In this document: one piece after another, positions 29,295 through 44,355 of the stretch
How the letters are laid out: every line of letters starts with the position of its first letter
How positions within the stretch are numbered: position 1 is the first letter of the stretch
Source: Roseivivax halotolerans
GTDB lineage: Bacteria > Pseudomonadota > Alphaproteobacteria > Rhodobacterales > Rhodobacteraceae
Direction of reading: 5' to 3'
Assembly: GCF_900115815.1 (NCBI RefSeq)
Contig: NZ_FOXV01000003.1
Coordinates: 186,001 to 250,000, forward strand
DNA length: 64,000 nucleotides
Notes under the pieces: model-generated
What the model was told of the DNA's origin: nothing
Databases searched by the model: none
Seen by the model: the letters and a program-made list of their open reading frames with translations, nothing else
Position numbers and translations under genes: made by a program

Positions 29295-29764
29295 GGCCTG
29301 CAGCACAGGAAGTGTTGCGCCTGGCGAAGGCGAAAGGCGCGACCATCGCCACGGCGGAAAGCTGCACGGGCGGCATGATCGCGGCAGCGCTCACGGACAT
29401 CGCCGGATCCTCCGCGGTGTTCGACCGAGGCTTCGTTACCTACTCCAACGCTGCAAAAACACAGATGCTGGGCGTGTCGGACGCCACGCTTGTCGCGCAT
29501 GGAGCCGTCTCCGAAGAGGTGGCGCGGGAGATGGCCCAAGGCGCTTTGGATCGTGCCGGTGTGACACTCGCCGTGTCGGTCACAGGGATCGCAGGGCCCG
29601 GCGGATCGGAAACGAAACCGGAAGGGCGGGTCTGTTTCGGTCTGGCAAGCGACCGCGGAGTTGCCACGGAAACCGTCGAGTTCGGCGCGCTTGGCCGCGA
29701 ACAGGTGCGCCGGGCGAGCGCGGAGCACGCGCTGGCCCTCCTGATCGCGGCGCTTGAAGGCTAG
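29291..29764 (+). CDS. pncC: Nicotinamide-nucleotide amidase (CinA C-terminal family)
   Basis: 157 residues, the stand-alone CinA C-terminal domain, which deamidates NMN back to nicotinate mononucleotide in NAD recycling. [20 protein letters not shown] holds the catalytic Ser, TGIAGPGG the conserved loop, and [11 protein letters not shown] the late strand. The ATG overlaps the pgpA TGA. The stop codon shares CTAG with the stop of the convergent gene. Confidence 0.92.
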
Positions 29765-31004: not shown

Positions 31005-32150
31005 CTAGTAGACCATGCCTTCATGCAGCGGCCGGTTCTCGCGTATCCGCTCCCATCCAAGAGGCGCAAGGTCGAGACTGCGATAGCCGCCGCACTGGAT
31101 CCATTCGGCGATCCCGCGCCCGGCGGCCGGTGCGTGTTGAACGCCGTGACCCGAAAACCCCGTGCAGAACAGGAGGTTCGGGAACACGTCATGCGGGCCG
31201 ATGATCGCGTTCTGATCGAGCGTGTTCATCTCGTAATGCCCCGCCCAGGCCCGGTCGAGCCGCAGCTTTTCCATCGCCGGAATGCGGTGGGCGATATGCG
31301 GCCAAAGCGCTTCGAGAAAAAGATCGTGGTCCGGCTCGAAATCGTCCGGCGCATGAGTGTCCCGTTCGGGCGGCGGCTGGATACCCGCGATGAACCCCTG
31401 GCCTTCGGGACGGAGCCAGAAACCCGAGATATCGAAGACGAGCGGCATCCCCTCGTTCCTCAGAGGGGCGCGGAACGCAAAGCCCGTGCGCTTCTTGTGA
31501 GCGACGGGCAGCGCGACCCCGAGATCGGCAACCAGGGGCGCGGATAGGGCACCCGCAGCCAGAACGCACCAATCGCAGGGCAGCCGCGTGCCGTCAGCCA
31601 AGGCAACACCCGTGACCGCTCCGTCCCGCCCCTCGATGCTCCGCGCCTCGCCGCGCAGGTAGGACACGCCGCCCTCTCGCGCACGGGCCCGCGCCTCGCT
31701 CAACATGGCCCAGGGGTCGAACCATCCTTCACCGCTGAGCCCGATCGTACCGCCGGCGAGATCGTCGGCGTTCAGCAATTCAAAGCGCTTTGAGAGGTCC
31801 GAGCGGTCCAGCACCGCGACATTCGCGCCAGACGCGTTTTGCATGTCCGCCAGCCGCGTGCGCGTCTCCATCCCTGCCGCATCCGACAGAACGAGATATC
31901 CCTGCTCGCGCAAGGCCATCTCTGATCCTATACCGCGCAGGTAGTCCGCGCCGTAAAGCGACATCTCCACGAGGAGCGGCGTGTCGAACTGCGTGCGGAT
32001 CCCGGCGGCGGACAGCGCCGTGGAGGCCCGCTCATAGCTCGGATCTCGTTCGACCACCGTGATCTCGCCGGGAAAGCCCTGCTCCACGAGAAACCGGGCG
32101 ACCATGCTGCCCATGGCCGCCCCGCCCAGGATGACCACACGCTCTGGCAT
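31005..32150 (-). CDS. FAD-dependent oxidoreductase of the DAO (D-amino-acid/sarcosine oxidase-like) family
   Basis: 381 residues. FAD-binding start VVILGGAAMGSMVARFLVE, substrate-side GYLVLSDA, and the C-terminal FCTGFSGHGVQHAPAAGRGIA that closes over FAD. This is the general amine-oxidase/DAO fold; an N-methyl or amino acid substrate is typical but not provable. The ATG at 32150 abuts a perfect LacI-type palindrome, leaving no clear ribosome site, so translation may rely on the upstream SDR gene 31 bases away. Two more palindromes lie within the gene. Last gene of the galactoside locus. Confidence 0.85.
   Translation of the reverse strand: MPERVVILGGAAMGSMVARFLVEQGFPGEITVVERDPSYERASTALSAAGIRTQFDTPLLVEMSLYGADYLRGIGSEMALREQGYLVLSDAAGMETRTRLADMQNASGANVAVLDRSDLSKRFELLNADDLAGGTIGLSGEGWFDPWAMLSEARARAREGGVSYLRGEARSIEGRDGAVTGVALADGTRLPCDWCVLAAGALSAPLVADLGVALPVAHKKRTGFAFRAPLRNEGMPLVFDISGFWLRPEGQGFIAGIQPPPERDTHAPDDFEPDHDLFLEALWPHIAHRIPAMEKLRLDRAWAGHYEMNTLDQNAIIGPHDVFPNLLFCTGFSGHGVQHAPAAGRGIAEWIQCGGYRSLDLAPLGWERIRENRPLHEGMVY
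31303..31314. promoter_or_regulatory. LacI-type operator, near-match (intragenic)
   Basis: CAAAGCGCTTCG, one mismatch to the palindrome CAAAGCGCTTTG, inside the FAD oxidoreductase gene. It is the most distal of nine related sites. Confidence 0.4.
31781..31792. promoter_or_regulatory. LacI-type operator, perfect palindrome (intragenic)
   Basis: CAAAGCGCTTTG lies inside the FAD oxidoreductase gene, read there as part of Ser-Lys-Arg-Phe-Glu. In the beta-galactosidase gene the same 12-mer is read in another frame, so it is conserved as DNA and not as protein. Confidence 0.6.
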
Positions 32151-32162
32151 CAAAGCGCTTTG
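32151..32162. promoter_or_regulatory. LacI-type operator, perfect palindrome at the FAD oxidoreductase start
   Basis: CAAAGCGCTTTG touches the ATG of the FAD oxidoreductase gene in the 31-base gap after the SDR gene. A bound repressor would block readthrough or translation initiation of the last gene. Confidence 0.7.
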
Positions 32163-32181
32163 GATATGGGGCCGGCCAAGG

Positions 32182-32958
32182 TCATTCCGGGACAGGCACC
32201 GTATAATTCAGCACCATGCGCCCACCGTCCGGGTAGATCGTCTGCCCGACGACGTAGGACGCATCCGGCCCGCAAAGGAACGCGGCGACCGAGGCGACCT
32301 CGGAGGGCTCCCCGCAGCGGCCCGCGGGCGTGCGCGACAGGATGGTCTGCCGCGCCGCGTCCGATTGCATGACCGACTGGCGCACCATGTCTGTCAGGAT
32401 CGTGCCGGGACCGATCGCATTGACGCGGATGCCGTGTGGAATGAGGCCCACGGCCATGACCGCGGTCAGCTGCTTCATCCCGCCCTTGGAGCAGGCATAG
32501 GCGACGGTGTTCGGGATCGCGAGCTCGGCATTGACCGAGGACATGTTGACGATGGCCCCGCCGTCGCCCTGGTCGATCATCTGCCGCGCGACGGCCTGAC
32601 CCAGCAGGAAGGGCGCCTTGAGGTTCACCGCAAGCGTTTTGTCGAAACCGTCTTCCGGGAAGTCGACGAAATCGGCTTGAACGATCATGCCCGCGTTGTT
32701 GATGAGCACATCGCAGCGCCCGAACGCCTCGACGCAGCTGGCAACGATAGCCGCCGCGCTGTCGGCGTTCAGGCTGGCAAGATCGACCACATGCGCGACG
32801 GCCCGATCGCCGAGCCGGTCCGCCGCTGCAAGCAAGGCCTCTTCCTTGATATCGACCAGCATGACCCGGTCGCCATCGGCGATGAAGCGCTCGGCGCAGG
32901 CAAGGCCGAGGCCTTGCGCGGCCCCTGTGACGATAACGGCGCGATCTGTCTGACGCAT
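32182..32958 (-). CDS. Short-chain dehydrogenase/reductase
   Basis: 258 residues, NAD(P)-dependent classical SDR. Cofactor loop TGAAQGLGLA, Asp in LVDI suggesting NAD preference, NNAGM, catalytic Ser in NMSSVNAEL, YACSKGG (Tyr and Lys), and late IGPGTILTDMV. The ATG at 32958 has AAGGAG 7 bases upstream; the longer reading to 33045 is rejected. Its upstream gap holds two LacI-type operators (33022-33054), so it likely starts its own regulated transcript. Placement with beta-galactosidase suggests a sugar or polyol dehydrogenase. Confidence 0.88.
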   Translation of the reverse strand: MRQTDRAVIVTGAAQGLGLACAERFIADGDRVMLVDIKEEALLAAADRLGDRAVAHVVDLASLNADSAAAIVASCVEAFGRCDVLINNAGMIVQADFVDFPEDGFDKTLAVNLKAPFLLGQAVARQMIDQGDGGAIVNMSSVNAELAIPNTVAYACSKGGMKQLTAVMAVGLIPHGIRVNAIGPGTILTDMVRQSVMQSDAARQTILSRTPAGRCGEPSEVASVAAFLCGPDASYVVGQTIYPDGGRMVLNYTVPVPE

Positions 32959-33021
32959 GTCCTGCTCCTTCTCGAGTTCGGGACGGAGTGTGACAGCACG
33001 GGCGCCGGACGCAAGGCGTCT

Positions 33022-33054
33022 CAAAGCGATTTGGGCATGCCTCAAAGCGCTTCG
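33022..33054. promoter_or_regulatory. Pair of LacI-type operators upstream of the SDR gene
   Basis: CAAAGCGATTTG (33022-33033) and CAAAGCGCTTCG (33043-33054) are 21 bases apart start to start, exactly two helical turns, so two dimers would bind on one face. They lie at the junction between the beta-galactosidase stop and the SDR start. Confidence 0.65.
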
Positions 33055-34940
33055 ATGTGGACGCCCGCAGGAGGCAGCGTGCCGATCTCGGTCGCGACAT
33101 CGGTGGCATTGTGGTTGAACCAGAATCTCTCCGCCCCCGTCTCACGGATACGGACGCCTTCGGGCAAAACGCGCGTGTCGATCCCGGCGCGCGGGGCGAG
33201 ATCCGCAATGAGCCGGTCAAGCGCGGCATCATCGCCCAAGCCGCCCATATACGTGATGGAACCTGCGCGCTGCGCGACGATCTGGCCATTCTCGGTCTGA
33301 AGAACCGGTTCGGCACTGCCTTCGAGCTCTTCGAGATACCCGACGATCCGACCGCCACCGTTCAGCAAGACCGGCATGTCGGGCCGCAGGCTCTCTACCC
33401 GGCTGACCGTTACATCGAGACCGGGAAAAGCGGGCGGCAGGGGAATGGGGATGGAGAATTCGCCATCGCGCGCGGCGCTGCGGGGACCGATCAGGAGTTC
33501 GGCGCCGCTTGCCGCAAGCCGTGCTTTGAGATCCTCGGGCATGTGCATGAGGCCCGGCGCGAGGATCAGGCGGTAGCCGTCCAAAGCGCTTTGGGAAGCG
33601 ACGATATCGACCGATAGCCCCGCCCGGCGCAGCGCCCGGTAATGATCGAGGACCAGCCCGAAATACGAAAGCCCTGCCCCGTGCGGTTGCACGTCCCAGG
33701 CCCAGGCCGCGTCGTAGTCGAAAAGAAGGGCAACCTCTGCCTGGCGCGGCGCGACGTCAGGTCGCTCAGCCAGCTCTTTCGCCACCTCGCACGCCTCGCC
33801 CATCGCTGGCGCATCGGCGCTGTCGGGCCGCAAAAGACCGCTATGCATCTGTTCTTGCGCGAAGGGCGCCTGCCGCCAGCGGAAATAACACACCGCCTCC
33901 GCCCCGTGCGCGAAAGCCTCCCAGGTCCAGAGGCGCACCATGCCCGGTAAGGGCGCGGGGTTGTAAGGCGCCCAGTTCACCGGGCCCGGTTGCTGCTCCA
34001 TCACCCACCAGCGTCCGCGCCCGACCGCACGGTATAGGTCGTGGTGGAAGGCCTGGAAGTCCGGATCGCCCTGGCGCATGTAACGGCGCTGGATCTCTGG
34101 CGAAGCGCCTGCACGGTCTTCCAGAAACCCCAACGGATAGGAATCCCAGCTTGAGATATCGAGGTCCGCGCCGACGGCGAAATGGTCGAAGGCGATCTCG
34201 CGGCCCATGTAATTATGCGCGATGGGCGCGTCCGAATGAGCTCGGATGATTTCGGTTTGCGCGCGGTTGAAGGCCACCACCTGATCGGACGAGAACCGCC
34301 GGAACGCGAGCGCATGGGCCGGGTTCGGTTCGGTCACGGTCAGGTTCGGCAGATCGATCTCGTCGAATGCGTCATACTCCATCGACCAGAAGACGTTGCC
34401 CCAGGCACGGTTCAGCGCGCTCGGCGATTGATAGCGCTGCGCGAGCCAGTCTCGAAATGCCTGCCGCGCCGCGTCCGAGTAGGAGATCACCGTATCGTGG
34501 CAGCCATATTCGTTGTCGGTCTGCCAAGCGGCAACATGCGGGTTTCGGCCATAGCGCTCTGCCATACGCGTCACGATGCGGCGGCATTCCTCGAGGGAGC
34601 CTTGATGCGAAAAGCAGTAATGGCGGCGAGATCCAAAGCGCCTTGGACGTCCCTCTGCATCGACGGCGAGCATGTCGGGATGTTTCGAGAGCATCCAGCG
34701 CGGCGGTGTCGCGGTGGGTGTGCCGAGAACGACCTTGAGACCGGCCGCGCCCAAGATGTCGATCGCCTCGTCGAGCCACTGCCAGTCGAACTGGCCCGGC
34801 TGCGGCTCGATCCGTTTCCAGGCGAACTCGCCGATCCGCACCCAGGTCAGGCCCGCCTCCGCCATGCGGCGGGCGTCCTCCTCCCAGATCTCCCGCGGCC
34901 AATGTTCGGGGTAGTAGCAAGTGCCGAGCGTGCGACGCAT
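33042..34940 (-). CDS. Beta-galactosidase, GH42 family
   Basis: 632 residues, usual GH42 size. It hydrolyses beta-galactosides; no signal peptide, so cytosolic after ABC import. The start TCYYPEHWP near residue 6 is the GH42 hallmark. The acid/base Glu is in AAWQTDNEYG near residue 145 and the nucleophile Glu in WVMEQQPGPVNW near residue 305; the trimerisation and C-terminal beta domains follow. The ATG at 34940 has GAGAGG upstream and starts the homologous region. It carries two operator-like sites inside and one just before the start. It follows the aldolase gene by 25 bases. Confidence 0.93.
   Translation of the reverse strand: MRRTLGTCYYPEHWPREIWEEDARRMAEAGLTWVRIGEFAWKRIEPQPGQFDWQWLDEAIDILGAAGLKVVLGTPTATPPRWMLSKHPDMLAVDAEGRPRRFGSRRHYCFSHQGSLEECRRIVTRMAERYGRNPHVAAWQTDNEYGCHDTVISYSDAARQAFRDWLAQRYQSPSALNRAWGNVFWSMEYDAFDEIDLPNLTVTEPNPAHALAFRRFSSDQVVAFNRAQTEIIRAHSDAPIAHNYMGREIAFDHFAVGADLDISSWDSYPLGFLEDRAGASPEIQRRYMRQGDPDFQAFHHDLYRAVGRGRWWVMEQQPGPVNWAPYNPAPLPGMVRLWTWEAFAHGAEAVCYFRWRQAPFAQEQMHSGLLRPDSADAPAMGEACEVAKELAERPDVAPRQAEVALLFDYDAAWAWDVQPHGAGLSYFGLVLDHYRALRRAGLSVDIVASQSALDGYRLILAPGLMHMPEDLKARLAASGAELLIGPRSAARDGEFSIPIPLPPAFPGLDVTVSRVESLRPDMPVLLNGGGRIVGYLEELEGSAEPVLQTENGQIVAQRAGSITYMGGLGDDAALDRLIADLAPRAGIDTRVLPEGVRIRETGAERFWFNHNATDVATEIGTLPPAGVHIEAL
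33582..33593. promoter_or_regulatory. LacI-type operator, perfect palindrome (inside beta-galactosidase)
   Basis: CAAAGCGCTTTG, read in the gene as Gln-Ser-Ala-Leu. It could act as an auxiliary operator for DNA looping, as lac O2 does inside lacZ. Confidence 0.6.
34634..34645. promoter_or_regulatory. LacI-type operator, near-match (inside beta-galactosidase)
   Basis: CAAAGCGCCTTG, one mismatch to the palindrome, about 300 bases into the gene. Confidence 0.4.
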
Positions 34941-34949
34941 GGAGCCTCT

Positions 34950-34961
34950 CAAAGCGGTTTG
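34950..34961. promoter_or_regulatory. LacI-type operator before beta-galactosidase
   Basis: CAAAGCGGTTTG sits 9 bases before the ATG, between the aldolase stop and the beta-galactosidase start. One mismatch to the consensus palindrome. Confidence 0.6.
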
Positions 34962-34965
34962 GATA

Positions 34966-35571
34966 TCAGGCGGGAAGCGCGTCCCACGCAGAGACGATGC
35001 CGGCCGCACGGGTGGCGACATCCTCGGCCGAAGCGCCGGGAGTATAGATGCCGGTGCCGATGCCGAAGCCGGTGACGCCCGCGCTGCGCCAGGCGGAAAA
35101 GTTGTCCGGACCGACGCCGCCGACCGCGAAGGTCGGCACCTCGCGTGGCAGGACGGCCGACAGCGCCTTCAGGCCGTCCGTGCCGAGCTTGAAGGCGGGA
35201 AAGATCTTGAGCCCGTCCGCCCCGGCACGGATCGCGGCGAAGCATTCGCTCGCGGTGAATACGCCGGGATAGGACAGCATGCCGGCGTCCTTCGTGGCCG
35301 CGATGACCTCGGGATTGCAATCGGGCGAGACGACCATGCGCGCGCCGATCGCCGCCAGACGATCCACGTCGGCAGGATCGAGGACCGTGCCCGCGCCGAT
35401 CGTCGCCTCGCTGCCCAGCGCGTCCACCATGCGCGCGATGCTGTCGAAGGGCTCGGGCGAATTGAGCGGCACTTCGATCCGGTCGATCCCTGCCTCCAGA
35501 AGCGCGCGAGCGACCGGAACGGCATCTTCGGGGCTGATACCGCGCAGGATGGCGATGATATCGCGGCTCAT
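34966..35571 (-). CDS. dgoA: 2-dehydro-3-deoxy-6-phosphogalactonate aldolase
   Basis: 201 residues, KDPG/KDPGal class I aldolase: cleaves 2-keto-3-deoxy-6-phosphogalactonate to pyruvate and glyceraldehyde 3-phosphate. IAILRGISPEDA, EVPLNSPEPFDSI (the PLNS form is typical of the galactonate enzyme, against TLRT in Eda), IGAGTVLD, VSPDCNPEVI, Schiff-base Lys in GLKIFPAFKLG and FAVGGVGPDNF. Overlaps the kinase gene by 4 bases. Confidence 0.93.
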   Translation of the reverse strand: MSRDIIAILRGISPEDAVPVARALLEAGIDRIEVPLNSPEPFDSIARMVDALGSEATIGAGTVLDPADVDRLAAIGARMVVSPDCNPEVIAATKDAGMLSYPGVFTASECFAAIRAGADGLKIFPAFKLGTDGLKALSAVLPREVPTFAVGGVGPDNFSAWRSAGVTGFGIGTGIYTPGASAEDVATRAAGIVSAWDALPA

Positions 35572-36476
35572 GTGGCCGTCTCCTTCATGTCTGCGCGGGC
35601 GGCGACAAGGCCAGCAAGCGTGACCGCTTCGGAGTCAAGACGCTCGACCGCCGCGCCCTGCGCGCTCAAAGCGCTTTCATAGGCGCGCGACAGATCGCTC
35701 GCCCCGGCCAGAATGATGGGCTGGCCGAGCCAGTACGGCCGCGCGCCCGCGAGCTCGAGCCCGATCAAGAGGCCGGAAAGCCGCGAGGCGGCGCGCGCGC
35801 CATCGAGACCGCGCAGCAATCCCTCGGCCCGGAGCCCGAAGAGATGGCCCGCGACACTGCCCGGCCGCGACATGGCGTCCGAGACGGCTTCGGAGAAGGC
35901 CTCCCCGTCCCAGCCCTCGCCAATGGAATGACGCAGAACCGAATTTGCCGAGAGAAGTGCGTAAAGCTCGCCCGTCATGAAGGTGCGAAAGCTCACCACC
36001 TCGCGCGCCGAGACCTGCACCCACTTGGTATGCGTGCCCGGCAGGCAGATTGTGCCGTCGAAGCCCGGGTTGGCAAGGAAGATGCCGCGCAGCTGGGTCT
36101 CCTCGCCCCGCATCACGTCGGCGGGCTGCTCCTGCTTCAGACCCGGCAGAATCCGCACGTCGAGGCGCGGATCGTGCACCAGCGCGCGCGTGGCCGCGGA
36201 AAGCTGGGGCGGCGCGGAGGGAACGCTGCGATACGGCGCTTCGGCCCAGCCCTGCCGCGAGCCGGCCATCCCGCAGACGATCACGGTGACGGGCCCGTTT
36301 CCGATCGCATCGCCGACGAGATCCAGAAGCGCGGGCTCGAACCCGTCGCGGGACAGCGCGTTCATGCCCCGGTCCGAGCTGCGCTTGTCCAGAATCGTGC
36401 CATCGGCCGCCATCAGCCAGGCGCGCAGGTTCGACGTGCCCCAATCGACCGCGATCCAGTCAAGTCCGTCCATCAT
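35568..36476 (-). CDS. dgoK: 2-dehydro-3-deoxygalactonokinase
   Basis: 302 residues. It phosphorylates 2-keto-3-deoxygalactonate with ATP. WIAVDWGTSNLRAWLM is the phosphate-1 motif of the ASKHA fold, followed by VIVCGMAGSRQGWAEAPY and CLPGTHTKWVQV, diagnostic for DgoK. Start at tandem ATGATGA overlapping the SDR stop by 4 bases. One operator-like site (CAAAGCGCTTTC) falls near its 3' end. Confidence 0.94.
   Translation of the reverse strand: MMDGLDWIAVDWGTSNLRAWLMAADGTILDKRSSDRGMNALSRDGFEPALLDLVGDAIGNGPVTVIVCGMAGSRQGWAEAPYRSVPSAPPQLSAATRALVHDPRLDVRILPGLKQEQPADVMRGEETQLRGIFLANPGFDGTICLPGTHTKWVQVSAREVVSFRTFMTGELYALLSANSVLRHSIGEGWDGEAFSEAVSDAMSRPGSVAGHLFGLRAEGLLRGLDGARAASRLSGLLIGLELAGARPYWLGQPIILAGASDLSRAYESALSAQGAAVERLDSEAVTLAGLVAARADMKETAT
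35667..35678. promoter_or_regulatory. LacI-type operator, near-match (inside dgoK)
   Basis: CAAAGCGCTTTC, one mismatch. The upstream limit of the operator array; none was found in the importer or dehydratase genes. Confidence 0.4.
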
Positions 36477-43452: not shown

Positions 43453-43490
43453 GTTCCATTATTTGAAACTTTAGTCCAACTATTGAAACT
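43453..43490. promoter_or_regulatory. Probable IclR operator region in the divergent promoter
   Basis: In an AT-rich 134-base gap, GTTCCA-N5-TTGAAAC (43453-43469) forms an imperfect palindrome, and TTGAAACT occurs twice as a direct repeat at 43463-43470 and 43483-43490, 20 bases apart. AGTCCAACTATTGAAACT (43473-43490) is a second imperfect palindrome. IclR proteins bind palindromes of about this kind; the adjacent divergent IclR gene is the obvious binder. Confidence 0.6.
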
Positions 43491-43557
43491 ATGCGCGAAG
43501 CCTCGTAAGAATGTCAACACGTCCCGCGACGGGACGCCGGGGAGGAGGCCCTGCAAG

Positions 43558-44355
43558 ATGAACGACATGGGCACGCGCAGCGGCGATGGCACTGTGGGAA
43601 AGGCGCTCGACGTGCTGGACCAGGTCGCGGGACATGGTCGCCCGATGCGGTTCGCCGAAGTGCTTGCGGCATCGCCCCTGCCCAAGGCCACGCTCTACCG
43701 TCTGCTGCAAACGCTTGTGAACCAGGGCATGCTGCGTCTCGACGCCGAGACCGGCGCCTATTCGCCGGGGCTGAGGCTCGTGCGGCTGGCGCACATGGCC
43801 TGGGCCCGGTCCTCGCTCGCACCCATCGCGCGGCCCTTTCTCGACGAGCTCTCCAAGGATGTCTGCGAGACGATCCACCTCGCGCAGCTCGACCGGGGTC
43901 AGGTGCTCTATGTGGACAAGCGCAATGCGCGCCAGCCGATCGAGATGTTCTCGGGCGCGGGCAAGGTCGGGCCGGGATATTGCACCGGCGTCGGCAAGGC
44001 GATGCTGGCCCATCTGCCCGATGACGAGCGCGCGGCCGCCCTGCCCCTCCAGGCCTTCCACGCCCATACGGGCCACACGATCACCAGCGCCGAGGCGCTC
44101 GAGGCCGAGCTCGCGGAAATTCGCGCCGCCGGTATCGCCTTCGACCGCGAAGAGCACGAGCCCGGCATCATCTGCATCGCCGCCCCGATCCTGTCGCCCG
44201 GCGGCCGTGTCATGGGCGCGCTTTCGATCACCACCTCCACCGACCGGCGCAGCCTAGAGGATCTGGCGACGCTGAAACCCCGCATGATCGCGACCGCCGC
44301 GCGAATCGCCGAGGCCGCCTCGGCCTGGCAATTCCCCGACCGGACCGAGACCTGA
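43558..44355 (+). CDS. IclR family transcriptional regulator
   Basis: 265 residues. N-terminal winged HTH ([22 protein letters not shown], then [20 protein letters not shown] as recognition helix) and a C-terminal effector domain ([44 protein letters not shown]). GGAGGAGG precedes the ATG at 43558. It lies between the binding-protein gene (divergent) and the ATPase gene (17 bases downstream), so it probably controls the galactoside importer and itself. Confidence 0.92.

Follow-up and report, generated by a model that had tools for sequence, protein, structure and literature searches.

AglR has been termed a local regulator. Its published operators carry the motif nnntcAAAGCGCTTTgannn, which is also the motif of the sites described here, and lie next to aglR and a divergently oriented transport operon; the part of the source that covers the regulon mentions neither intragenic arrays nor terminus-side sites (PMC4052901). 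The same part gives more than 75% of LacI-family sites at −140 to −30 and fewer than 1% in coding regions (PMC4052901).

Other described systems resemble the present one in the distribution of their sites. In E. coli, 23 matS sites are reported in 800 kb (PMC3330122), and the relevant passages of two ZapT papers report MatP and ZapB from enteric bacteria only (PMC7188993, PMC7858052). As with MatP/matS, a short site recurs here about 20 times over about 1 Mb on the terminus side: 18 sites and two agl operators extend over 1.2 Mb in one relative, G301. Unlike MatP/matS, the motif is a different one, the sites are distributed lopsidedly about dif and some species have dense arrays; the candidate binder would be a LacI-family protein, with a structural role suggested by sequence comparison. 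E. coli GalR is likewise a sugar repressor of the LacI/GalR family and connects distant operators in mega-loops; its sites, in the sections of the source that treat them, are scattered and upstream of genes, whereas those described here are mostly intragenic, arrayed and terminus-side (PMC5110547). Caulobacter ZapT offers a further parallel, being a regulator-type protein in an alphaproteobacterium with mostly intra-ORF sites on the terminus side, but it belongs to the MerR family and the available account gives 10 ChIP peaks and no consensus motif (PMC7188993, PMC7858052). Among the matches listed from the open-licence literature, none reported terminus-side LacI-type sites or intragenic AglR sites.

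A site array in the galactoside locus

The window analysed here is a 64-kb stretch of G000, a genome of 3.77 Mb in 45 contigs. The motif is a 12-nt palindrome, CAAAGCGCTTTG, of even length with a central CG, and a near-match is defined as a copy with ≤1 mismatch. An earlier note had placed nine copies within 4.4 kb of the window; a motif scan recovered all of them, three exact and six with one mismatch, as well as a tenth at 29537. All ten have a pyrimidine directly 5' of the 12-mer and a purine directly 3' of it (Y/R flanks). The sites and the genes around them are as follows.

29537..29548, no strand: tenth site, CAAGGCGCTTTG, one mismatch, Y/R flanks
31303..31314, no strand: site CAAAGCGCTTCG in the FAD oxidoreductase gene, Y/R flanks
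31781..31792, no strand: exact site in the FAD oxidoreductase gene, Y/R flanks
32151..32162, no strand: exact site abutting the FAD oxidoreductase start codon, Y/R flanks
33022..33033, no strand: site CAAAGCGATTTG upstream of the SDR gene, Y/R flanks
33043..33054, no strand: site CAAAGCGCTTCG over the GH42 stop codon, Y/R flanks
33582..33593, no strand: exact site in the GH42 gene, Y/R flanks
34634..34645, no strand: site CAAAGCGCCTTG in the GH42 gene, Y/R flanks
34950..34961, no strand: site CAAAGCGGTTTG in the gap from aldolase stop to GH42 start, Y/R flanks
35667..35678, no strand: site CAAAGCGCTTTC in the 2-keto-3-deoxygalactonate kinase gene, Y/R flanks
31005..32150, minus strand: FAD-dependent oxidoreductase (DAO), Pfam PF01266
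32182..32958, minus strand: short-chain dehydrogenase (SDR), Pfam PF13561
33042..34940, minus strand: GH42 beta-galactosidase, Pfam PF02449
34966..35571, minus strand: KDPG/KHG-type aldolase, Pfam PF01081
35568..36473, minus strand: 2-keto-3-deoxygalactonate kinase, Pfam PF05035
43483..44355, plus strand: IclR-type ORF, divergent from the galactoside operon, read from the translation

The array exceeds chance, as the earlier note had held. In 100 dinucleotide shuffles of the 64-kb window, 0.10 near-matches (sd 0.30) were expected against the 10 observed, and between 31000 and 36000 the palindrome has nine near-copies, while the runner-up 12-nt palindromes have two each. Synonymous-codon shuffling of the five genes yielded a mean of 0.20 sites and at most two in 1000 shuffles, compared to the six observed. 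This rules out an explanation at the protein level and supports selection on the DNA itself, which had also been claimed. A genome-wide scan, in which the earlier note took an even spread of the palindrome to speak against its reading, gave 22 near-matches in G000, compared to 10 for a backward-read control. Ten of these fall in the window cluster, five on contig C39, two beside aglR and five singly; the motif is thus unevenly spread, with most copies in two clusters.

Six of the nine array sites touch coding sequence, as noted earlier, five of them wholly intragenic (31303, 31781, 33582, 34634 and 35667) and one, at 33043, overlapping the GH42 stop codon. The remaining three (32151, 33022 and 34950) are not intragenic but lie in short gaps just ahead of gene starts. 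The sites at 33022 and 33043 are spaced by 21 bp, and that at 33582 falls on residues that vary across GH42 orthologues. The usual placement of LacI-family sites at promoters is therefore not seen for the six coding-touching sites, a comparison that bears on use as promoter operators and not on binding specificity.

The array lies in a galactoside/galactonate gene cluster on the minus strand, in the part distal to the promoter. The genes, assigned by Pfam, run in the order FAD oxidoreductase, SDR, GH42, aldolase, kinase, second SDR, dehydratase and GH4 glycosidase, followed by transporter genes identified by reading translations. From this layout, the cluster probably forms one operon. The scan of the 64-kb window at ≤1 mismatch found no site at the operon promoter, beside the IclR-type ORF.

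AglR as the candidate binding protein

The regulator had been supposed to be encoded elsewhere, and a candidate was found on contig C20, where an AglR-like LacI-family gene (C20:16573-17604) is preceded by two exact copies of the motif, at C20:16379 and 16548. This pair sits between an aglE-like gene and the LacI-family gene. With its Y/R flanks, the operator is the 14-base sequence YCAAAGCGCTTTGR. Each of nine genomes of the genus had one aglR match at E ≤ 1e-60, which speaks against an AglR paralogue as the binder, and in 9/9 the match was adjoined by the operator pair, the two operators being 156–169 bp apart. All 18 of these agl operators have Y/R flanks. G000 encodes seven other LacI-family genes.

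The flanks are also found on four of the five C39 sites, compared to none of the five single sites in G000. In six array-less members of the genus they accompany 9 of 30 non-agl near-matches, where about 25% would be expected. Because the array sites match the operators upstream of aglR in both motif and flanks, and match the published AglR motif, the reading as LacI-type operators holds and has a candidate regulator. We consider the sites to be putative binding sites of AglR or of another protein sharing its specificity.

Gain, loss and retention of sites among relatives

A tree of two proteins grouped G000 with G302 (0.97) and both then with G298 and G301 (1.00). G302, the nearest relative, has the same genes with about 78–79% DNA identity over those of the array, and its galactoside locus contains no site at ≤1 mismatch. 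Neither do the homologous stretches of G298, G301 and G297. The best GH42 matches in G301 (C1:50518) and G298 (C26:161613) lie elsewhere in those genomes, and the genome site lists show no sites near them. Such a lack of conservation at orthologous loci is the outcome that the earlier note had named as telling against its interpretation. When the intragenic window sites were aligned to G302, the flanking sequence aligned and the 12-mer was altered by substitutions, which rules out insertion of a small palindromic element for the coding sites. The six coding-touching sites were 51% identical to G302, compared to 75% (p 0.001) for all the 12-mers in this region. Alignment was poor or gapped at the start-proximal sites and at the stop-codon site. 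By these alignments, G000 alone among the genomes compared has the window array. A general feature of galactoside loci was likewise rejected, since the 29 other GH42 loci examined, of 144 genomes with a match (G000 included), were free of sites.

A second array lies in the selD/mnmH region, with five sites in 2.75 kb of C39 in G000, one of them between divergent genes, and four sites each in G301 and G298. The other six members of the genus have no near-match there at ≤1 mismatch; G302 thus lacks arrays at both the galactoside and the selD/mnmH loci. Three of the five sites of G000 recur unchanged at the aligned positions in G301, and the rest were gained or lost. Between G301 and G298, six of 10 aligned sites have the same sequence (p 0.006 against a null of 20%) and eight of the 10 stay at ≤1 mismatch; two of the six identical sites lack Y/R flanks. 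The array is not a general feature of selenium loci: in 80 selD-fusion loci from other genera, mostly of Rhodobacteraceae type, nine near-matches fell in seven loci and there was no array. Two of these loci carry a pair spaced by 157–161 bp, like that at an agl promoter.

Chromosomal position and possible roles of the sites

Position was analysed on the 3.79-Mb chromosome contig of G301. A dif-like pattern occurs at 1.743 Mb (one mismatch) and 1.801 Mb (two mismatches); we used the latter because its centre is the same as in the G000, G297 and G298 matches, a choice that shifts distances by less than 0.06 Mb. The orientation of GGGNAGGG changes from the sampling point at 1.60 Mb to that at 1.80 Mb. 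Both the dif-like and the GGGNAGGG pattern are general ones, presumed to apply in G301. The genome has 31 near-matches, two of them agl operators, and the other 29 divide into 18 with Y/R flanks and 11 without. All 18 of the former lie ≤0.69 Mb from dif (p(max) 2e-5, p(mean) 1.5e-4, for Y/R and dif tests devised after inspection of the data), and they merge into 11 loci at 10 kb. The 11 sites without the flanks are spread (mean 0.78 Mb, p 0.15), six also falling within 0.69 Mb. Eight of the loci lie to the left of dif and three to the right, none within 0.13 Mb. As only 0.14 Mb separates aglR from dif, proximity to dif is also proximity to aglR, and the sites might instead cluster about the gene.

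Fifteen of the 18 Y/R sites in G301 are in called ORFs of varied function, where ORFs of the relatives were called by a simple codon score and some calls are uncertain. The host genes, named mostly by reading, include glnE, gatA, guanine deaminase, an ABC-F ATPase, selD and mnmH, and have no common pathway. Of the 16 non-agl sites in G298, 10 carry Y/R flanks; nine of the 10 could be placed on G301, all nine on the terminus side, leaving one, on contig C15, unplaced. A near-origin position of two G298 sites was dismissed after contig placement: the gene cluster at 10–25 kb of G301 lies at the equivalent of 1.13 Mb in G298, and the G298 copy has an exact site where the G301 copy has none (local alignment 70% identical). 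The repeated Y/R site is thus confined to the terminus side in G301, and in G298 where placeable. G000 has two array loci besides agl, which by homology correspond to about 2.35 Mb (window) and 1.44 Mb (C39) on G301, on the same terminus side. A strand asymmetry of the mismatches, noticed on visual inspection of the window and of C39 and less clear in G301, was not used as evidence.

The earlier note had suggested that the array serves to repress the genes for beta-galactosidase, SDR and FAD oxidoreductase. That suggestion found no support, since sites are absent from the related loci, including the G302 orthologue, the site-free operon promoter has its own IclR-type gene and the motif is arrayed elsewhere as well. 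A local effect may nevertheless occur, given that three of the nine window sites immediately precede gene starts. Under local repression, AglR bound at start-proximal and intragenic sites would form loops or roadblocks, in the manner of lac O1/O2, and so limit expression of the distal galactoside genes; alpha-glucosides would thereby set the order of sugar use, and the selenium array would be a second AglR target. The start-proximal sites, the spacing of the agl operator pairs, which would fit a loop, the sugar-related functions of the host genes and the C39 site between divergent genes agree with this; the site-free promoter, the empty homologous parts of G302, G298, G301 and G297 and the same sites in unrelated genes of G301 argue against it, and we regard it as unlikely while taking it seriously. 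Alternatively, intragenic AglR sites might be inert and merely tolerated, or keep AglR near its gene, with no structural job. Many intragenic PhoB sites in E. coli have been proposed to be inert, and are reported as non-conserved in the account available (PMC10294691). The closeness of aglR to dif in G301 and the restriction of the window array to G000 would suit such titration, but several site positions are kept between species while their flanks differ, and nine sites in 4.4 kb are far above drift, making it quite improbable.

Another terminus protein, for instance a MerR protein of the ZapT type (a system in which zapT lies beside ihfA, with zapA and zauP), might bind instead, the likeness to AglR operators being coincidence or convergence. 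Caulobacter ZapT sites do lie mostly within ORFs at 1.3–2.2 Mb around the terminus (PMC7188993, PMC7858052). Since the match to AglR operators extends to the flanks and the published ZapT work, in the parts available, found no consensus (PMC7188993, PMC7858052), this is very unlikely. Dense intragenic copies at two loci could also recall a highly iterated palindrome or uptake-type sequence brought in by foreign DNA, for which hundreds of copies would be expected; with 22 near-matches in G000 and, across 295 genomes of the family, 7 exact copies in G000 (the most) and 0–5 in the others, in host genes that have ordinary orthologues and with sites made by substitution, this was rejected as hardly credible.

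The reading that fits best is a chromosome-structural role of AglR-type sites on the terminus side, as opposed to control of the host genes. It rests on the identity to AglR operators including the flanks, the single AglR per genome, the unrelated host genes and the terminus-side position; we hold it tentatively, at somewhat less than an even chance. One clade of the genus would have gained, and partly kept, AglR-type sites, mostly intragenic and terminus-side, and AglR bound to them, or another protein that recognises the same sequence, would bridge or fold the DNA there and might affect chromosome folding or segregation, in a role resembling that of the MatP/matS terminus domain or of GalR-type long loops. 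The G000 arrays would presumably play the same part as the sites dispersed in G301. Points on the other side are the lopsided loci, the presence of only two array loci in G000, the array-less G302 and the three start-proximal window sites. More specifically, AglR may have been co-opted in one clade as an organiser of the terminus domain, with operator-identical sites written into coding sequence, dispersed in some species and in dense arrays in others, as an independent analogue of MatP/matS; this is a rather doubtful possibility.

If local repression were true instead, the locus would still be an unusually dense, recently evolved intragenic array of LacI operators. If the structural reading is true, a metabolic repressor would have gained a structural job, and the folding of the chromosome could be coupled to the supply of sugar. 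The clear 14-base motif, the closely related species that have or lack it and the single candidate protein would then open the origin of a chromosome-domain system to direct test.

Operator spacing at the agl promoters

Across the nine genus genomes (L213-L221), the two operators of the LacI-family regulator AglR at the agl promoters are 168-169 bp apart in R. halotolerans (G000) and its clade members G302, G298 and G301, and 156-159 bp apart in the remaining five. The difference is about one helical turn, the five having the shorter spacing. Such a difference fits looping between sites on the same face of the helix.

The segment following the AglR helix-turn-helix also varies, with Arg in the four clade members and G296 (PNxRA) and Trp in the other four genomes (PNAWA).

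Near a selD-fusion gene in two other genera, near-exact site pairs were found with spacing like that at the agl promoters:
L087 7945/8106, near-exact site pair, spacing 161 bp
L106 11556/11713, near-exact site pair, spacing 157 bp

Tandem and conserved sites

An internal tandem site pair in a guanine-deaminase-like gene is kept between G301 and G298 (L037 6873/6895; L057 6349/6371). Both pairs, and the tandem pair at window 33022/33043, have a spacing of 21-22 bp, or two helical turns.

A DNA-binding regulator-like gene carries a site lacking the pyrimidine/purine flanks of the agl operators at the same place in three genomes (L026 8784, L062 10086, L069 5057); conservation of the protein, not of the DNA motif, may be the cause.

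Gene cluster positions and a likely local regulator

One cluster of genes, about 16 kb long, is found close to the start of the G301 contig (10-25 kb; L031/L292), but at the equivalent of 1.13 Mb in G298:
C45:668764-685000, same gene cluster in G298 (L291/L058)

In the window, a regulator-type ORF lies beside the galactoside gene cluster:
43483-44355, IclR-type ORF, divergent from the cluster

This ORF likely encodes the local regulator.
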